From Tubulanus polymorphus (Eukaryota > Nemertea > Palaeonemertea > Tubulaniformes > Tubulanidae), in NCBI RefSeq assembly GCF_964204645.1, contig NC_134026.1, positions 28,972,650-29,036,649 of the forward strand: 64,000 nt of DNA. The letters are read 5' to 3'. Below the pieces are notes generated by a model that was not told where the DNA came from, ran no database searches, and was given only the letters and a program-made list of their open reading frames with translations. A program made the translations under genes and the position numbers. Shown in pieces: positions 76 to 34,017 of the stretch. Each line of letters opens with the position of its first letter. Positions within the stretch are counted from its first letter, which is position 1.

Positions 76-6695
<6,620 letters not shown>

Positions 6696-19709: not shown

Positions 19710-21140
19710 ATGGCGGCCCCCATGTCGGAGCGTGATGAGGATAAAATTCGACTTCCAAACCATTTGAGGAAGTTACATGACCGTGATCAAGCAAAAAGAC
19801 TAATTGTAGTGTTGGAAAATGCATCTCTTGAAACTGTGAAAGTGAGAAAATAGAAATTATTTATTGTGAATTGTGCAAAAATAGCTAAAAACTGCCGTTT
19901 CCGAGTTCAGTCAATTCAAATTACAAATCAATGTATTGTAGTTTATTGACGCAGATTATATCTAACATTTTTAACAAAGGTTGTAAATCATTTATTTGTA
20001 CTTTTTCAAAAAGGTGGGAAAAAATTTTGAGCTGCTTACCTGTGATAAACATAAAAAGTTGATGGCAAAATTCAAAAGAGATCCAGCAGTGATGCGACCA
20101 GATATTGCTCATCAGGTAATATTGATGGGGTCAATCATTCATAACAAATTTAAGTAATTGTTTGTGACATGTAGAATACTTTAAACTGTTTACTTATTCA
20201 ATTCAATCGAAGAATTGATCGTTCATCCAGTATCTTATTTGCAGTGTTTGCTGATGCTCATGGACAGTCCTCTGAACCGTGCTGGTCTATTGCAAGTTTA
20301 CATACGAACAGCAAAAAATGTTCTCATTGAAATTAACCCGCAAACTCGAATTCCCAGGACTTTCGATAGGTTTTGTGGACTCATGGGTGAGCTAATGTTC
20401 CATAGTAATATCAGCTGAAGGCTGGTAGTCAATTGTGAAGTTTTAAAATCTCTTTTTTATCATGTACATTTTAGTTCAGCTGTTACACAAACTCAGTATT
20501 CACTCTGCTGATGGAAATCAAAAATTACTTAAGGTAATTTTGTTTTATATGACTAGTAGGCCTACTGACCAGAAAAAGACATTTTGTTGATTTCATTGCT
20601 GGGGCTAGATCCGGGGCCAATGTGAAGGTCTTACCAAATGTATGTACCGATATGGCTAATGTATCTACAAAGTGGTGCTCTTTAATCTTAAATTTTTGAG
20701 AGTAAGGTATTACAAAAGTCTCATGAGATCCCCTTGGGTTGGATCTACACCCGATTGCACTCAGGATTCACATGTGTATTAATTTCAGGTGATTAAGAAT
20801 CCTGTATCACAGCATTTACCTACTGGATGTATGAAAGTAGCTATGTCCTTTAGTGCAAAGCAAGTGGTTGAACCCAAAACTTTAGTTCCTGAAGATGCAC
20901 CAATAGTTATTGTAATTGGGGCTATGGCACATGGAAGTGTAAGTAATGAATGTGAAATCGTTTGGACCCACAAATTTGTGTTTTGTAAGAAAGAAGAAAA
21001 TTTTATTTTCATCGTTTTTATTTTAGGTTGATGTGGATTATACAGAAAAGACATATTCCATTAGTAATTATCCACTATCTGGGGCTCTGACTTGTGCCAA
21101 GATTTGTAATGCATTTGAAGAAGTCTGGAAAATTTTATAG
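19710..21140 (+). CDS. EMG1: EMG1/NEP1, 18S rRNA pseudouridine N1-methyltransferase, complete, six exons
   Basis: Exons: 19710-19841, 20014-20115, 20245-20386, 20475-20533, 20789-20938, 21027-21140. They give 699 nt, 232 residues, with intact frame. EMG1 is a SPOUT-fold, SAM-dependent enzyme of the small-subunit processome that N1-methylates a conserved pseudouridine in 18S rRNA and is needed for 40S maturation. Family blocks seen: [18 protein letters not shown], the nearly invariant [51 protein letters not shown], the SAM-binding VIGAMAHG, and the C-terminal [15 protein letters not shown]...FEEVW. Length matches the family. A polyadenylation signal lies 40 nt past the stop (21180-21185). Confidence 0.97.
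20598..20755. mobile_element. Possible decayed hAT-like MITE in EMG1 intron 4
   Basis: The left edge GGGGCTAGATCCGGGG and right edge GGGTTGGATCTACACCC are loosely complementary and resemble the CAGRGGCGGATCCAG end of the clearer element at 22744-23098. Ends are degenerate, so this is tentative. Confidence 0.3.
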
Positions 21141-21179
21141 CAGTGTATTTATGAATAATAATCAACAATATTATACAAA

Positions 21180-21185: not shown

Positions 21186-21507
21186 TATTCGTGGTTGTAT
21201 TTCACAGCTTGTCCGATAAAATGTTTCGCCTGGTATGTGGATTTTCGGGGTTCGAACTCTATACGCGGTCGGTTGAGGTGCATGCAATAAATTGCTATGG
21301 AAAGGAACAAATTATTTTTGTGACAAGATGATGATAATTTATATACATTTGATTATGGTTTTCTGATTGACACCTAATTAAAGAGCTCTATTTCGGTGGA
21401 ACGTTCAGTGGTAGCATGGACGTATGAATTCAATTATATAATCCATTCCACATGTTCCAAGGCGGTAGTGACGTTTATGGCGCATAATTTGACGGCCCTT
21501 CTTTCTT

Positions 21508-24500
21508 GTGAAAAAAGCCTTCCTCCGGAGCACCGGAGTCGTTGATAAGATGGGTCCTCGGCGAAAATCATATAAACTCCGACTTGCCAGCAGTGATTTT
21601 TATGAAAATCCGAATTATCAAGGTGTTAAATCTGAGGTAGGTTTGACGTCCGTTAAATGCGCAGGGGAAAATCCAGGAACAAAAATAAAACAAACAAACA
21701 AAACTGATCCGGCCTCACTGACCGTGCACAAGAAGACAGGACTTCGCCCCTGTTTTGAGCCATATAATTAGCAGCTATTCACTCCTCGGGCATAGGACGC
21801 ATTCCACATAGGGCACATTGTTTGGATTAAGAGGAGTTCCTTTATGAGTCAACTACAGATAGATTTCTATAGGTAGATCAATTAGGCCTATATAGACTTC
21901 CTTCATTAGGGTGAAACATAGGTCATTCACTCATTGTGAGTTGAAAATATTTGGACAGTGAATCAAGTTCACATTTATATAAGACACACATTGCCAGAAA
22001 TGTGAACAAGCCTATTGGATTAGATTTTAATTTTGCTGTTTAGAGATGTATAAGGTAAGAATTATTTGACTAAAATTTGAAAATAATTGATAAAGCGATA
22101 AACTGGAAATCCCCTCATATGATAGAAATGACCCTATTTACAATAGAAAAGAATACCGTACCGGTATATATTTTCTATCTAATCCAGCCCCTGGTATTTC
22201 ATTTGTGAACAGAGAGAGGCTACCCTGAAGTTAGTCTGAATACCAGTCGTTGTTACCTGTTCCCTACAACGGTTGTTTGTGGAACGACAGCTAGGTACTA
22301 GACTACCCTGAAGTGACCCTTGATAATCTTTTGCAACTCATGGTATCGGAAAGATCAGGAAATTATTTCCGTGTGAAGTTCGTCAAAACCTGTTTTATTT
22401 AAATTTCCGTTTAAATTCTAGTTTGTGAAGAATGGACGCGAAGTCGGCACTTTCGATAACCCGGCGTACTACGACGCAGATGAGGGAGAGGAACACGTCT
22501 ATCAAGATCCAGTTGATCCATCTGGAATTAATCTCGCTGATAACAGCGGGAAAAATTACGGTAATTACAGTCTTCAATCAAACATCCTGAAAAAAAGATG
22601 TATAACACTGTTCACTTGGATAATCAATAGTGGCGATCATAGACCATTTGGGCCAAGTCAAACTGGCCGGGACAAGTCCTGAGTCAGATTTTGCCTGTGC
22701 CTTTCTTAGAGAGCGCATTCACACCTAAATCACTCACTCGTCAGGGGCGGATCCAGGGGGATGGGTAGACAGTATTGGAAGGATATTTAAGGGCACCTTT
22801 CTGATCTTAGGGCACACCCAGTATCCAGGTCAATGCGAGTGCCGAAGGCGCGAAGTCCTTCGAAGGGGGTATGGGGCCCTCCCCCAGAAAATTTTGAAAA
22901 TATGGTACCATTTAAAGGCTTTTAGAGGACTTCTAGAGACTAATTCAGAGCAATCCAGAATAAACGACCCTGACACGGAATTAGCGGTTGCTGAAATAAT
23001 GCCTTTAAAAATATTGCCGGTGAAATTTCGAAGGGCACTTAACAATTTATTCTAGACCGTATTGGGCAATACGGCTAATACGGTCTGGATCCGCCTCTGC
23101 TCGTTACAAAAATGCTATCATTGCTACACAAGTGAAGTGAGCACTTCCAGAACCATTGACATGTGCAAAATTTAGTACGTCTACTGACCGAAAACATCCT
23201 GGGCCAAATTGTGTCTGGGTGAAAAATGCTTGTGATATCATGGCTAATCTCTCATGTATTACGTAATTAGGTTATTATGAAGGCGTTCAACCCAATAATG
23301 ACGATGATCCTCATTTATACCAAGAATTGAACATTCGTCGACCAGTTCCAGTTTACCGGAAATCCGAGGAAAAAAGTAACTCTGGTTGTAGTTCAAAATG
23401 TATTAAAGTATCTGTTGCTGTTATGGTGATTGTTGTTCTTGCTGTCATCGCTGTTGTAGTGTACTTTTTAGGTAGGTAAAATGTTCTACGTAAGCTGGGA
23501 TTTTAGTGGGGCTTTATCCATCCTTTAACGCATAACATTGTCTTTTGGTGTCTGCAAAAATATTGAAAATCAAGCTAGATTTCTCATCAATTCACTATAG
23601 TTTACACATCTATAATCATTGTGTTAGCAATGATCAACTTAAATAATATGTATACAATATTTTGAAAGGAATGGCAAATTTTCAGAGGGGCGAATGTAAA
23701 AGTGAAAGGGGTGGCAGCTCCTCTAAATCCTCTTGTAGAAATTGCTGCTGATACCATTTGCATCTATTTTTTGTATAATATTCGTATAGCGGTATCTTGA
23801 ATAAAACTTGCAGGTTTTCACGATACTGGAACTGAAAGTACCACGACACCAGCTCCTCCTAAACCAGGTAGGTCTATACACACCATTTCAGATTGGTGCA
23901 ATGAAAAAACAATACATTTTGTTCATGGTCGATGTCATAATATTTCAGCTCCTCAATTTGAAGTGGATTTCAGAATCGATGATATGAGCTATTCTCCAGC
24001 TTTATCAAATCCTGCTAAGCAAGAATATAAGAGTTTGGCGAAAGAAGTTGAAAAAAATGTAAATAAAGCAATTCTTGTTGGATGATCATTCATTATTTTA
24101 TTGTTTGATGAACAAAACTTTCTTCTATCAATATATTTCAGTTAGATACCATCTACAAGAACAGTAATATCGGGCCATCCTATGATTATAGCAAAGTTAC
24201 ACAGTTTAGGTCAGTATTTCGAATGAAAGGTAATCTACCGGGAAGAACAAAATTCTTACCGTAGTCTACATTTGTATATTATAGCCAAGGAAGCGTAAAA
24301 GTTAAATATGATGTATTTATGAAGTCTCCACCTCCTGGAACGAAACCAACCGTAATTACAAAAGATACTATATCTCAAGTGCTTGTGAAAGAAGTGAAGG
24401 AAAAAGGCAGTTTTGGTCGCTTTTCAGTGGATCCAAATACAATCAAAGTTAAAGGTACTGGCTTAATACTAAATGTAATTTCGATGTGAAAATTGATACA

Positions 24501-27500
24501 AATTTAAAGTGTCCATTGATGATCTATTTAGACATTGTGAAAACTTCAACTGCACCAATGCCAAGTACATCTGAAATGGTTACTTCAAGTTCAACTTTAC
24601 CAAAGATGATGTCTACAACACCTGGTAAAACCTCTGACATGAGTTCAACAACACCTGTATCAGGGATGTCTACAAAACCTGGTAAAACTCCATACGTGAG
24701 TTCTACAACTCCAGGATCAAAGATGTCTACAACACCTGGTAAAACTCCATACATGAGTTCAACAACTCCAGGATCAAAGATGTCTACAACTCCTGGTAAA
24801 ACTCCATACATGAGTTCAACAACTCCAGGATCAAAGATGTCTACAACACCTGGTAAAACTCCATACATGAGTTCAACAACTCCAGGATCAAAGATGTCTA
24901 CAACACCTGGTAAAACTCCATACATGAGTTCAACAACACCGGTATCAGGGATGTCTACAACACCTGGTAAAACTCCATACATGAGTTCAACAACTCCAGG
25001 ATCAAAGATGTCTACAACACCTGGTAAAACTCCATACATGAGTTCTACAACACCGGTATCAGGGATGTCTACAACACCTGGTAAAACTCCATACATGAGT
25101 TCAACAACTCCAGGATCAAAGATGTCTACAACACCTGGTAAAACTCCATACATGAGTTCAACAACTCCAGGATCAAAGATGTCTACAACTCCTGGTAAAA
25201 CTCCATACATGAGTTCAACAACTCCAGGATCAAAGATGTCTACAACACCTGGTAAAACTCCATACATGAGTTCAACAACTCCAGGATCAAAGATGTCTAC
25301 AACACCTGGTAAAACTCCATACATGAGTTCAACAACTCCAGGATCAAAGATGTCTACAACACCTGGTAAAACTCCATACATGAGTTCAACAACACTGGTA
25401 TCAGGGATGTCTACAACACCTGGTAAAACTCCATACATGAGTTCAACAACACCAGTATCAGGGATGTCTACAACACCTGGTAAAACTCCACGCATGAGTT
25501 CAACAACACCAGGATCAAGGATGTCTACAACACCTGGTAAAACTCCAACAGCTTCAACGACTCCAGCACTAGAATCAACCACTAGTAATATCTCCCAAGG
25601 TACATATAGACTTTGTCTGAATTACTGGAGTACTTGCTTTATATATACGTGTATTATGTAAATGGCTTTGTATTTCAGCTCCTCAGTTTCAAGGAGATTT
25701 CAAGATTGATAATCTGAAATATTCTTCGGCTCTATCTGACCCTACTGGACAAGAGTATAAAAGGTTGGCAAAAGAAGTTGAAACAAATGTAAGTTCTGAT
25801 ATGTTTAGTTTTCTCCCATAAATTTTATGATATTCTAGCATATTTTTATCATAGTGCCTGTGAAGTTAATTTGTGATAAATGATCATTATTAATTGGAAA
25901 ATGTCCATATAAAAGTATTGTTCTCTTCAAATTTCAGTTGGATGTTACCTACAGGAAAAGTGCCATCGGCCAATTTTATGATCGTAGCAAAGTGAAAGAG
26001 TTTAGGTGAGTGATATATGATCTAATACTGACAGAAATTATTTGAAAACATCCTCAAATTGTATAAAAACAAATTATTGAATTTATACCTTGCAGCTCGG
26101 GCAGTGTAAAAGTCAAATATGATGTATTTATGAAGTCTCCGCCCCCTGGAACAAAACCAACCGTAATTACAGACGATACTATATCTCAAGTGCTTGTAAA
26201 AGAAGTGAATGAAAAAGGCAGTTTTGGTCGTTTTTCTGTGGATCCGAATACAATCAGATCTAAAGGTATGAGCATGCTTATGCAGTTTATTCAGGGTAGC
26301 TGAACTAGATAAAATCTTACTAGAAATAAAACGCATATTTTATGAACTTTTTTCCCAGCAGTGATTACTAAAACAACCACAACGACTCAAACTCTGATGG
26401 TAACCACTAAACCCAGTAATAACCAGACTGATCATTCGTATACTGGTGGTTGTACTGAATCTGTTATTATGGGGTCAATCAAAAACCAGTGTAATCAACA
26501 TATTTCATCATTCGTAAGCCTCGCGATTCAAGGTGAACAGAGAAAGCTTTGTGGGTAAGCAACCAATTTAATCTCGCTGATGTCGACTACGGACCTGACT
26601 ATGACTTCTATTTGAAAGCAGTTTTAAGAGCTCAACTACTCTCAAAAGATATTGAAATACTCTCAAAATTGGAATAATTTCTAGTTCATTTTCATGTTAC
26701 TTATCAAATTCTAAACTACTACAATTACAAATATCGGGTAGTCTCTAGTCTGTGACTGTGTGAAATTCATGATTTCTGACTTAAATGGTATTGCATTTTG
26801 TAGCTCTTTCAAGCGCATAGTGAAGTGTCTTGCTACTCATTCAAACTGTTCAACGATGGACATCAATACTTGGCTAATCAGAGTAGAGAATATATTCAAG
26901 ATGTCATTCAGTTTCAACATATCCGACTGTATCGGTAATAACTGTACGATGATAGCTGTGAAAGAATCAGTCGTCGGGTCTTGTTCAGTTTACTACAACA
27001 TCGTTCAAACAAATGTTAATCTTACCAAGCGACAAATTCAGAATGATCGAAGCAAGTTTTGCGAGTAAGTGAAATAATGACTTGTATGTAGGAAAACTTG
27101 CGTTAAACCGCTCCAGTCGGCAAAACGTTTGTTTAAACAAAACAGAAACTGATTGATTGTTCAAGTTTGGATGTTTTACCAAACACCCAACGCGCACTGA
27201 ACAAAAAACATATTAGACAACTCGAAAAGTTTTGGCATTTTTTGGCATAACAAAACACATCAAAAACGTTTTTCCTTGCCATGTGCATTGGGGATAAGTT
27301 GGATCCCTGATTGGAATATTATACATGTTAAACTGTATTTCAACGAAATACTAGATTTCAAAAATCTATGATTTCAGTTCGATGAATCAATTAGAACGTT
27401 GCTTGATGAAGAAACAGTGTACGAAACCTCAGCTATTGACATTGTTTCGGTCCAATCTTGAAAAATATCTGCAGCTGTTCAGAGCATTCAGTCCTTTAGA

Positions 27501-30500
27501 TTACTGCGCGAATAGACCTCAACCAACACGACTACCGTCTCGCTGTGAAGTGCTCGATGTATTAGACGTCATCAACAGTAAATGTATCCCACCTCATGAG
27601 ATTTTGAACATACAAATGGTGACTGGTAACCGTGATAGATTCTGCCTGTAAGCACAACTCCATACGCATTCATTATACACATTTATTAAAGTCGAAATTA
27701 ATTCATCTTTTCGATTTCCATTTTCAGTGGAATAAATGAACTGATTAACTGCGTGTTGAGAAATACTCAGTGCTCCGAGATGACAGTCATGAATTCCATC
27801 ATGAAATACAAGACTTTATTTCCGATGTCGGTTTCACGTTATCTGGACCCTTGTTTGAAATCGACCTGTAACAATATGACAGCGATAGAGTCAGTGTTAT
27901 TCAACTCATGCGCGGACGAGCACAGTGCACTCAATGCTACCTTATCAAGACCAATAACTGACAATTCAGGAGTGTGCAGGTAATATATAATGATAATGAT
28001 GATAATTCATCACTTACAAGATTCTATTATTTTCCTGTTGTGCTATTTCCACATTCCAGGCAGTGATGCTGAAACCATACAACATGAAACAGCACATCAT
28101 AGAAAATAACCAACATGAATTTGATAGAATAATCACATTTGGAAATAGACAAACATGGAAATTGACCAACATGGAAAATAATACATTTCTATCAATTTCC
28201 ATGATGGTCAATTTCCGAATGTGACTATTCTATCAAATTCCAGTTCTGGATTTTTCTATCTTATTCCAAGGTGTTCACTGATGTTAATTTCCATGTCGTG
28301 CATTTTCCAGAAGTGAAAATTCTATTTAAATCCAATACTGGATTTTTAGGACAATTTCATGTCGGACAATTTCTGTGTTGTACATTTTCATGTTGTTCTT
28401 TGTCTATGATTGGTTTATTCCATGTTGTACTAATTCAGCATCCCCCTTACAAGTACTTATCATTATTACAATATTTCAGATTTCATTTAGTTGGTTATTT
28501 CTGATGCGAGTTGCAGAGAAAGACCATGCAACTACATCAGTGTAGTGTTAAATATTTTCTATGAATAAACATACCGGGTCATCTTCACCCGTCAAGGGAT
28601 TCGAACCCACTACGCTAAAGCTGTTCGCCGAACCCCTTGACCTCACGAGTCGTTGGAGTCGTTACTAGCCGACCAGAATCGGGTCGTACCAATCACAGCG
28701 CTTGTAACAAACGACTTTAGGCCTCTATTGGTTTTCCCATTAAATGAACCAATCAGCGAACGTTTTACTGAACAAGGAAGTATTTCGCAAATCGATATAT
28801 GACGTCATGCGCAACAGCGCCAGTAATGAAATCACGCTTCGTGAGGCCAGGGGGCCGGTGGAAGCGAGTTCGGGAGTGATACCGGACCCCTGGCAAGCGA
28901 GGATGATACCGGGTAGACTTCATATTCTTACTTGAATATTGCATCTCTTACAGGCAGTTGAATCAAACATATACTTGTTTACGTAATCAACTGAAATGTC
29001 CAGAAGAAGACTTCAATAAACTTATGAATAATCGTAAACTTTTCCCATTCGCATTTGATCGGAGAAATTGTCAGAACAGAGTAAAGTGTGAAGAATTATC
29101 AGTCATAAATGTGTTAATGACACATTGTACGGGAAGTCTATCTCAGTTAAAGATGGCTATAAACTCTAATAATCAGAATATCTGCAGGTTTGTACAATGC
29201 ATACGTACATCTTTCAACTACCGGTAATAGTAAAATAATTGAAATTGTAGTAATTGTATTATTTGTGTTTATTGTAGTTACGTTGATAGACTGGGATTCT
29301 GTGTCACTAATTTCACTCGATGCAGCATTGAAGATGCTAAACTGATGGTGGATAGGAATAAAATGATGCTGCAGCAATACCTGGGAGTGACAAATTTCAG
29401 TGGTTGTTTGACTAATATCAGTCGATGTACTGTTAATAATGTTGTCAGTATCGCTCAAACAAACTGTTCAGATATTCTCAAGAAAGTTCATGTTTCTTCA
29501 AAAGCTGCTCCATCATTATTATGTCCGTAAGTACTTAATCACTGTTAAAATATTCTAGATTGAAAGCTTTGAATTCCGGGCCAAACTTTTATCAGCGCAT
29601 AATGAAATTCGTGTTGAGCAGGAAGTTATTAAACTAAGTGCTTAGCAGAAATCAACAGAAATCTTGGAATCTTATTGTACACTTAGTTATCATTGCATTA
29701 TATGAATTAATCACGGGTCTTAATCAAGTTTTCCTGCTTTTAGTTACTTGGAAAAAGACCTTCTCGGTTGCGTTAAGTACTATTCAATGTGCAAAGAAGA
29801 GCAAATAATGAATCTGATTCAAAATCCAAGCAGTTTACAGAAGATTGATGCGGCTATCCACATTGCCACACCTGTGAAAATTTGCGATAGATACCACGGA
29901 GATCGATGTAGAAATTATGAGAAATTTTTCAACATTGCGAAAACTAACTGTTCAAAAATAATCGCAGCAGTTGGGAATTATTCACTGATGAGGAATGATA
30001 CACAAGAAGCTTGCAGGTACGGTGTATGATAAATCATCATAAAATACTGATACAAATTAGATAGATTTCAATAAGTATCTTTCAATTTCAGGGAAGTTGA
30101 TGAATTTAGGAGATGTGTAAAACACGCGTCAAACTGTAATGAATCGGATGTTGATTTCATGATGACATCATTTAGTTCAGAGATGAAATCACTGTTCAGT
30201 GGATTTAGCTACAAAGATAGATGTCTGAATAACAGTATTCCATGTGGAGACCACGACTTAATGTTATCAGTAGTAAAAACCAAGTGTTCAAAGAATATTT
30301 CATCGATAGCACAATTAGTATCAACAAAACCAAATTCAACTGATGAAATATGCGGGTACTTATCGCTTCACATATGAGCTAGAAGAATTTCACTATTCAT
30401 TCAAATCCTTTACTTTGAAAAGATGTCTTTACTTTTCAGTTATTTCAGTCACAACTTCAGAATATGCGTGGAAACAAACACAAAATGTGATTCGGTATCA

Positions 30501-31316
30501 GTTGGCGCGATGTTTATGAGTCGGATGTCCGAATTCAAACGTTTGTTCGGAGGATTTGATATAATGAAATGTTCATCCTCGCAACCTGTAACTAAACCTC
30601 CATCGAATAAATCCTGTAATGATTCCATTATTCTGACTCTCATGAATAAGGATTGCGTCAAACAAAAAAATGCCGTGTTTAAATCAGCAAAAAGTGACCC
30701 ACAAACAAGTTGCAGGTACTGTAATTTCATTTGAGTGCTGTGCTGCGTATATCACATCTTGAATTTGTTTATGCAGTTTTGTGAAATAACTGGTGTTTTG
30801 ATTATTTTCTAGCGATTTCGGCATGTTGCTCGCCTGTTTAAGTCCGATTGCACCGTGCAGTAGTGACGATTTGACAATGATATTCATAAACAGTGCAAAG
30901 ATAAACTCGGCATTAAACGGTTTTAATTTGATCGCATGCGCCCGACCAGCTGCAACTGTAGACCCAACACAATGTTCACTTACTGCTGACAACTATTTAC
31001 AAGTGTCTGAAACCATTTGTCCGAACCAGTACCGATCTTATAAAGATAACATAGGCTCACCTACATCGATGTATTGTTTGTTAGTACATTTCTGATCACT
31101 TGTTTATTTTCTTTTCATCGTGTTGCAATATTTTTGAATTTCTTCTCTTTTTTATTTTTCAGTATGATGGCTATGTATTTGCAGTGCCTGGAAAAACAAA
31201 CGAAATGCGGTGTCGAGGCTGTTGTGATGACTTTAGTTATGTCGCCAAATCTGACAGCTCATTTTGGCGGAGTTCAAAAAATAATGAGTTGTTCATCACT
31301 TGCACCGATGAGATGA
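21508..31316 (+). CDS. Type II membrane mucin-like receptor: NPxY tail, SEA, Thr/Ser/Pro repeats, SEA, cysteine-module array; unnamed
   Basis: Exons: 21508-21636, 22422-22560, 23271-23471, 23814-23867, 23949-24058, 24142-24209, 24285-24454, 24532-25599, 25679-25788, 25938-26005, 26096-26265, 26359-26554, 26804-27064, 27378-27647, 27728-27979, 28954-29187, 29278-29526, 29744-30016, 30092-30355, 30440-30715, 30813-31079, 31163-31316. Total 4983 nt, about 1660 residues, frame open throughout. There is no signal peptide. A tail with NPNY (34-37) and NPAY (56-59) precedes one hydrophobic helix (about 133-157), so the rest should be extracellular. Order: SEA1 (about 176-290), Thr/Pro repeats (291-646), SEA2 (646-762), Thr linker, then about ten six-cysteine modules. 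The start may instead be the in-frame ATG at 21550. A TATATAAT lies at 21435-21442 and an ATTAAA at 31594-31599. I know no family with this whole architecture. Confidence 0.85.
22622..23240. repeat. Dispersed repeat family B, copy 1, interrupted by a small transposon
   Basis: Flanks of the inserted element read AAATCACTCACTCGT and CTCGTTACAAAAATGCTATCA. The 41.5-kb copy reads AAATCACTGACTTACAAAAATGCTATCA without interruption. Further shared words are GAGAGCGC..TCACAC and CACTTCC.GAACC. Outer limits are approximate. Confidence 0.65.
22744..23098. mobile_element. Non-autonomous hAT-like MITE with CAGRGGCGGATCCAG terminal repeats
   Basis: The left end CAGGGGCGGATCCAGGG and right end CTGGATCCGCCTCTG are inverted copies (14 of 15 bases). 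CTCGT occurs immediately outside both ends, a candidate target duplication, shorter than the 8 bp usual for hAT. The interior holds the GCGAAGTCCTTCGAAGGGGG motif and no transposase ORF. It lies in intron 2 of the SEA/mucin gene. Confidence 0.8.
24609..25560 (+). repeat. Coding 57-bp tandem array (sixteen complete units plus a partial) encoding a 19-residue mucin repeat
   Basis: Units begin every 57 bp from 24609 to 25521. The consensus peptide is MSTTPGKTPYMSSTTPGSK, with a common VSG variant at the end. About half the residues are Thr, Ser or Pro, as expected for dense O-glycosylation. Because 57 is a multiple of three, copy-number change keeps the frame. Internal units are nearly identical and edge units more diverged, a sign of ongoing homogenisation. 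Confidence 0.97.
26357..26361 (+). promoter_or_regulatory. NAGNAG tandem splice acceptor in the SEA/mucin gene
   Basis: The intron ends ...cccAGcAG; splicing after either AG stays in frame and adds or drops a single Ala ahead of V-I-T-K. Known NAGNAG sites are often alternatively spliced. Confidence 0.6.
28020..28440. repeat. Fold-back/minisatellite-like region in the SEA/mucin intron 15
   Basis: The words AACATGGAAATTGACC and its complement recur throughout. The core is a 49-bp inverted repeat: arm 28117-28165, spacer 26 bp, arm 28192-28240, differing at a handful of positions. Outside the core, ACAACATG-type words continue on the left and their complements on the right. Confidence 0.8.
28591..28641. 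repeat. 13-bp inverted repeat overlapping a B-box-like sequence
   Basis: GTCAAGGGATTCG (28591-28603) and CGAACCCCTTGAC (28629-28641) are complementary at 12 of 13 positions around a 25-bp loop. The minus strand contains GGGTTCGAATCCC, a pol III B-box match, so this may be a tRNA-derived relic. Confidence 0.6.
28847..28893. repeat. Second 13-bp inverted repeat, GC-rich
   Basis: CCAGGGGGCCGGT (28847-28859) and ACCGGACCCCTGG (28881-28893) match at 12 of 13 positions across a 21-bp loop, about 50 bp before the exon at 28954. Confidence 0.65.
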
Positions 31317-32418: not shown

Positions 32419-34017
32419 TCAGTGTTCGTAATCTATTTTCACAACCTGTCCAGTTGATAAACCTCTCTCGCATGCTTCTATTATCTTATGCACTCGTACT
32501 ATGCTGTCTTTGGTTATTTTCAAAGTTTCTTTGCCTAAAATTGAAATATGTAAAGCAAAAACCTCTTAAGAAATGTTCAATTTAGTAACAGAATGATAGC
32601 GTTTTCGCTCTCACCTTGAATTACGTCGAAGAAGTTCTTAAGAGCGGCTTCGTAACTGTCTTTGTAACGTTGAGGAAACGAATATTTGATCGGTTCGTAC
32701 GACATTCCCTGTTTATTCGAAACCGATATCTCGAACGGTCTTTGATTCTCTGAGATGAACATCCCATTTTCGGCGAATATCTGAAAACAAGACGTGGACC
32801 GATAAGATTCTGCTGAATTCCAAAGATGACACGTACGGAACACGGGCGTACGCTTTACCTCCAATGTCTGGTGATAGCCGTAAGAAGCAAATCTACTGAG
32901 TTCGATAACGCAAGAGGTATTTGTTGGGTACTTCATAATAATGAAACATGTGTCCAGGTCGTTCGTAGCCGCAATTTCGCGGGAGAAAGTGTGACCTTGT
33001 ACGTACACAGTTTCAGGCCAGGAATCAAGAATCCAGCAAATGAAGTCAATATCATGAACCGCGCAGTCATGGAATATTCCACCTAGAAATTAAACTAATC
33101 TGTTGAATACATTCATTCACATTAATAAATGAATGATATGTGTTCAAATTTCTTATTTTAACCTGATATTTTCAAGTATTCTAAAGATGGTAATGGATGA
33201 TCTCTGGAACATGATTTTACGGTAAAGATTTGTCCATATTCCTCTCTTTTGTTGAATAGCTGTTGCAGTGAAGGATCGTACCGTCTAAAAATCATACATA
33301 AAATATCTGAATCTCTTCGTAGTAAATATTTTTATATACAAAAATGTACGGTAAATACTTAGCAAGAAACAATTGGACTTTTATCGTTTTTATCTTATCA
33401 TCTGTTGGATTTATCAGTGAAAGGACTGAATTAATCTAAATATCGAATGATTTTTATACGTTACCTGTTCAACGAGCAGAATAGAATCTTTCCCGCTTTT
33501 TCGGCATCGTCGTAACACTGTTTAGTTTGTTCTATATTCTGTGAAATTGGCTTCTCACAGAATACGTGTTTCCCATGATCCAGAGATTTCTGGACAATTT
33601 CATAATGTGTATATGTTGGCGTACAAACGAAGACACACTGTACCCTGAAATAAACATGAATAAAACAAACATACGTATATCTATTTTCGTTTCTGCATTA
33701 TGAATAATGGTTCGTTCAGTTAATGTAGTTTCCAGGTAAAGGATTTGGTATTGGCTTTTACGAAAGTATTACCTTTCATCGAGGAAAACTTCGTCAGCAT
33801 CTGTATCTTTGATCGCCGTTGTATCCCCTTCAAGGTTATATTGCTCTACGAGATCATCTGCCAAATTCGTATTGCGATCTACCAAGTATAAAACCTGTGC
33901 CCGATGAGATGCGGACAAATTATTCAAGTGTATCTGGCCACTCCGTCCTACACCAAAAATTGCTACACCAAACTTTTTACGGAGATTTGCTCCTGGTAAT
34001 CCGTTCAACAGCTCCAT
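32419..34017 (-). CDS. Gfo/Idh/MocA-family NAD(P)-dependent oxidoreductase, inositol 2-dehydrogenase-like, six exons
   Basis: Exons in transcript order: 33773-34017, 33465-33644, 33163-33284, 32859-33082, 32615-32780, 32419-32534. Total 1053 nt, 350 residues, frame intact. The N-terminal Rossmann fold carries GVGRSGQIH (dinucleotide loop), then CVFVCTPTYTH, and the family lysine in HVFCEKPIS. The C-terminal domain has FHDCAVHDIDF with the expected catalytic Asp/His pair. The closest functional group I can name is myo-inositol 2-dehydrogenase (IolG), which oxidises myo-inositol with NAD+; other sugar or sugar-alcohol substrates cannot be excluded. There is no targeting signal, so it is probably cytosolic. 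It converges with the SEA/mucin gene and diverges from PEBP across about 540 bp. Confidence 0.9.

Follow-up and report, generated by a model that had tools for sequence, protein, structure and literature searches.

Our study identified, in a stretch of 64 000 nucleotides of the Tubulanus polymorphus genome (hereafter the window), a gene encoding a protein of 1646 aa in which a cytosolic N-terminal tail, one membrane helix, two SEA domains flanking a mucin repeat and an array of ten six-cysteine modules follow one another in a single reading frame. This architecture can be read directly from the sequence. The function that we infer from it, that of a single-copy, type II, sheddable and internalising surface receptor carried on a mucin mast, is our preferred explanation and is one that we hold with about even confidence. 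Type II SEA-mucin stems are known chiefly from membrane proteases; the one described here carries a large non-enzymatic cysteine-module array together with an LDL-receptor-style tail. If confirmed, this would add a further build to those found among animal surface receptors.

The coding sequence extends from 21550 to 31316 on the forward strand (4941 nt including the stop codon). GT donors and AG acceptors were found on all 22 exons when the exon joins were rebuilt from the raw sequence, and a single frame was kept throughout. The original prediction of a 22-exon, in-frame gene held for its exons, its frame and its end at 31316 (the TGA stop occupies 31314-31316), but its length of 4983 nt had to be reduced. 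Its start at 21508 added 14 codons without an ATG, and there is an in-frame TGA upstream at 21490; the start was placed at the ATG at 21550, which lies in a good context (AAGATGG). Each of the array exons (13-21) has one stop-free frame, which is the frame used, and between 4 and 12 stops in each of the other frames, and the donor of exon 21 is GTTAGT, after 31079. The last exons of an EMG1/NEP1 methyltransferase (20789-21141, forward strand; PF03587, E 5.2e-19) mark the 5' limit of the gene and an exon of a Gfo/Idh/MocA-type oxidoreductase (32577-33089, reverse strand; PF22725, E 3.1e-15) marks its 3' limit, so that the locus is bounded on both sides.

Other features of the window were also recorded. 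At 1151-3277, on the reverse strand, a single exon encodes a rhodopsin-class GPCR whose third cytoplasmic loop is unusually long (7tm_1, E 1.5e-15 for the first part), and a near-perfect 34-bp tandem repeat occupies 6269-6405 (4 copies, 97 %). Intron 15 of the gene described here is inflated by two young repeats (28020-28445 and 28580-28906). The first is a palindromic element of ~400 bp with near-identical copies (95-97 %) on contigs C4, C2 and C9. The second, of ~327 bp, is present on most large contigs in dozens of copies that are 96-98 % identical (1252 first-look candidates); it contains a tRNA B-box-like GGATTCGAACCC and is perhaps a SINE.

Hydropathy across the whole protein revealed only one hydrophobic segment, at aa 119-142 (maximum KD 3.3), which is encoded by exon 3 (23271-23471), and no signal peptide was found, there being no hydrophobic segment within the first 60 aa. 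The single helix, the lack of a signal peptide and the positive-inside flank together indicate a type II protein, which agrees with the predicted single membrane helix behind a cytoplasmic N-terminal tail. Nearly all of the 23 N-glycosylation sequons are in the array and its linker and none is in the tail, a placement that fits an extracellular array. The cytosolic tail (aa 1-118) is hydrophilic and is encoded by exon 1 (21550-21636), exon 2 (22422-22560) and the beginning of exon 3. The twin NPxY motifs that had been predicted were found as YENPNY (aa 18-23, exon 1) and FDNPAY (aa 40-45, exon 2), and exon 3 adds YQEL and the juxtamembrane cysteines CSSKC. Two [FY]xNPxY motifs arose in 1 of 20,000 shuffles of the tail. 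FxNPxY is known mostly from type I tails. As endocytic motifs, FDNPAY fits FxNPxY and YQEL fits YxxPhi, whereas YENPNY has Y instead of F. FxNPxY is bound by the PTB domains of Dab1, Dab2, ARH and Numb, and YxxPhi is bound by AP-2 mu2 (PMC2882754). On the strength of these motifs we favour an internalising receptor, although short linear motifs are a weak indicator of endocytosis.

Beyond the membrane, exon 4 (23814-23867) encodes a short Thr/Pro linker, which is followed by the stem. The presence of two SEA domains on either side of a Thr/Pro repeat was borne out, and the identity of both domains is firm on profile comparison (PF01390): SEA1 at ~aa 161-276 and SEA2 at ~aa 633-748 gave E-values of 2.6e-17 and 1.6e-17, with scores of 63.3 and 64.0 bits that lie above the curated cut-off of 26.4. 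SEA1 is encoded by exons 5-7 (23949-24058, 24142-24209 and 24285-24454) and its duplicate, SEA2, by exons 9-11 (25679-25788, 25938-26005 and 26096-26265). The exon lengths of the two are identical (110/68/170), as are 88 of 115 aa, and the low dN relative to dS (0.14 and 0.57; dN/dS ~0.25) shows that both have been retained by purifying selection. Between them, exon 8 (24532-25599) encodes the mucin (PTS) domain, in which a 57-bp repeat at 24608-25566 (16.9 copies, 93 %, by TRF) yields 17 Thr/Ser/Pro units of 19 aa, with a composition of 26 % T, 21 % S and 15 % P. Among solved structures in the PDB, the closest genuine match to these SEA domains was the SEA domain of TMPRSS11D (E 6e-6). Higher-ranked PDB matches of SEA2 to designed PPR and alpha-solenoid proteins were rejected as repeat artefacts, each repeat scoring 2-3.5 bits.

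Both SEA domains contain the G-S autocleavage motif, as FSQG/SVKV in SEA1 and FSSG/SVKV in SEA2 (the slash marks the predicted cut). Both sites resemble a motif of the form GSVVV or GSIVA that has been reported for MUC1, GPR110 and GPR116; SEA domains that carry it undergo self-cleavage between strands 2 and 3, and the cleaved domains hold together until force pulls them apart (PMC6954182). Judged by motif, both SEA domains of the present protein are probably self-cleaving.

The array is the largest part of the protein (867 of 1646 aa, compared to ~350 aa for the mucin part). The predicted number of about ten modules could be refined to exactly ten, which use 60 cysteines with none spare, the last module stopping 7 aa short of the C-terminus. 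Cysteine spacing is constant (C-x12-14-C-x18-25-C-x8-9-C-x5-6-C-x23-30-C) and identity between modules is only ~20 %. In leave-one-out profiles, all ten modules scored above 1000 shuffles; when the cysteines were held fixed during shuffling, eight of the ten beat all 1000, and the other two lost to 3 and to 1. Exon 12 (26359-26554) encodes a Thr-rich linker and C1-C3 of the first module, and each of exons 13-21 encodes C4-C6 of one module and C1-C3 of the next (26804-27064, 27378-27647, 27728-27979, 28954-29187, 29278-29526, 29744-30016, 30092-30355, 30440-30715 and 30813-31079). The second half of the last module, module 10, is encoded by exon 22 (31163-31316), which ends with 7 further aa and the TGA. 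In every module a phase-2 intron directly follows the third cysteine. Exons 13-21 are uniformly of phase 2-2, which is the mark of tandem exon duplication.

A search of the 268-Mb genome with the module consensus recovered all nine of exons 13-21, with E-values from 1e-12 to 5e-4, whereas no other match fell below 0.3. Genome searches for paralogues of the whole array, the module consensus, SEA2 and the tail matched this gene alone. Three further consensus matches at E 0.3-1 were discarded, as no corresponding cysteine pattern was seen on reading. The module matched no Pfam family above cut-off, nothing in the PDB by profile search and nothing in NCBIfam. For the domain of nematode chondroitin proteoglycan 4 (CPG4, PF15481), weak matches were obtained with module 2 (E 0.0004), with module 4 (E 0.004) and with the module consensus. 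All of them fell at profile positions ~15-59 of 94, which cover the C-x8-C-x5/6-C part of the module. In the genome search, PF15481 gave no match anywhere, not even in the controls, and this result therefore carries no weight as to absence. The best of these matches was partial (about half of the profile) and reached 21.2 bits against a cut-off of 32.7, and we treat a relation to CPG4 as a weak lead only. Single-module Pfam matches to SAM_2, DUF6673, FAP206, INTS7 and others appeared once each, below cut-off, and were set aside. AlphaFold models of two exon-contained units, which are circularly permuted by the exon boundaries, were all-helical and of low confidence (pLDDT 62 and 65), and searches of the PDB with these models using Foldseek/VIA returned histone-fold or unrelated matches only (E >3, Z <3). 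A new fold is not claimed for the module on the basis of permuted units and low-confidence models.

In the mechanism that we propose, each SEA domain would cut itself at the G/S bond during folding and its halves would remain associated without a covalent bond. With the N-terminus as the anchor of the chain, two different products could be released: a break in SEA2 would liberate only the ten-module array, whereas a break in SEA1 would free the mucin domain and the array together. If confirmed, the different distances of the two SEA sites from the membrane would allow staged release to be tested cleanly. The array, which sits well away from the membrane, would bind a ligand such as a soluble protein, a glycan or a microbe; this binding is a guess, and the role of the module could be purely structural. 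At the other end, the [FY]xNPxY pair and YxxPhi would engage PTB-domain adaptors and AP-2 and so lead to clathrin-mediated uptake, with phosphotyrosine/PTB signalling as an alternative output of the tail.

A role in adhesion, mucus or immunity, as first suggested, is conceivable for such a protein, and the main rivals of an internalising receptor are a barrier mucin and an adhesion receptor. Membrane mucins use SEA domains for release, and the mucin domain, the two SEA domains with their cleavage sites and the sequons, which are mostly on the array, would all suit a barrier-type membrane mucin in which the cell surface is protected by a sheddable glycocalyx, or by a cross-linked coat, made up of array and mast, and the tail motifs only set turnover. 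The persistence of cleaved SEA domains until force is applied is also in keeping with such a role (PMC6954182). However, the mucin part is modest beside the array, and the presence of three endocytic-type motifs in one tail points to more than an anchor. Furthermore, known membrane mucins are, to our knowledge, type I proteins with an N-terminal mucin domain and a cytosolic C-terminus. Taken together, we consider a barrier mucin rather unlikely. The twin [FY]xNPxY motifs, the other tail tyrosines and a long, extended ectodomain with a force-labile SEA pair would be compatible with a receptor for adhesion and mechanosensing or for signalling, in which the array binds cell or matrix, the SEA domains separate under force and phosphorylated NPxY motifs signal through PTB adaptors; however, Pfam detected no known adhesion domain in the protein, and we regard this explanation as improbable. 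The prediction that one gene joins the SEA part to the cysteine array is supported by exon 8, whose single open frame carries the mucin repeat and lies between the exons of SEA1 and those of SEA2, and by exon 12, which physically links the two parts. Two genes, or a mis-joined model, with a SEA-mucin membrane protein and a separate cysteine-array protein, are very unlikely, as exon 12 encodes the Thr-rich linker that follows SEA2 together with C1-C3 of module 1 in the same open frame, the array starts and finishes on whole modules and lacks a separate signal peptide, and intron phases are compatible along the whole gene.

The stem of the putative internalising receptor has a relative elsewhere in the genome. 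Besides those of the present gene, a genome-wide search with the Pfam SEA profile located two SEA exons. Both are on contig C8, at a locus (8873295-8887300) that encodes on one strand a TM segment, SEA, mucin repeat, LDLa-like stretch, SEA, mucin repeat, LDLa and trypsin, and that is a type II enteropeptidase-like mosaic. In this gene a Thr/Ser/Pro frame stays open for ~1600 codons and the tail is rich in tyrosine; its product is a protease tethered on a very long mucin mast. A phase-2 intron lies just before the G-S dipeptide in all four SEA domains examined across the two genes. The TMPRSS11D-like SEA domain and a C8 gene with the same SEA intron indicate that stems of this type are already known and that the novelty lies in what the stem carries. 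The earlier statement that no family is known with this order of domains was upheld for the whole order, which was matched nowhere in Pfam, the PDB or a limited literature search, but not for the stem, which is TMPRSS/enteropeptidase-like; only the module is unclassified. The gene probably arose by the placement of a cysteine-module array on a type II SEA-mucin stem such as that of the C8 protease. The array may have replaced a protease, the alternatives being the opposite direction of descent or a common SEA stem. More tentatively, the module may be an extracellular domain for ligand binding that has not been described before, and the gene may define a new family of endocytic receptors, type II and sheddable, in which the array stands in place of the protease of a SEA-mucin protease; if confirmed, a new domain family would await a name and a solved structure.

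Compared to known systems, the similarity to CPG4 is weak and confined to part of the module, and the whole-protein architecture is different. The LDL receptor family combines an FxNPxY tail with repeated extracellular cysteine modules, as seen here, although LDLR is type I, and the asialoglycoprotein receptor has YxxPhi in a type II tail, as in YQEL; unlike these receptors, the present protein has no LDLa, EGF, YWTD or lectin domain. The SEA-type transmembrane mucins (MUC1 and MUC3/12/13/16/17) share with it a Thr/Ser/Pro repeat, a SEA domain with the GS motif and a single helix. However, the order is reversed in our protein, an ordered cysteine array is membrane-distal, and neither the signal peptide nor the C-terminal cytosolic tail of type I mucins of the MUC1/MUC16 kind is present. 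The type II SEA proteases (TMPRSS11D/HAT, enteropeptidase and matriptase) have the same N-in/C-out orientation with SEA beside the membrane, and enteropeptidase also carries mucin-like sequence. Protease/trypsin, LDLa, CUB, MAM and SRCR domains were not detected by Pfam in our protein, which has no C-terminal trypsin domain and is followed downstream by the oxidoreductase on the other strand. What distinguishes it from the type II SEA proteases is the combination of ten six-cysteine modules and a twin [FY]xNPxY tail.
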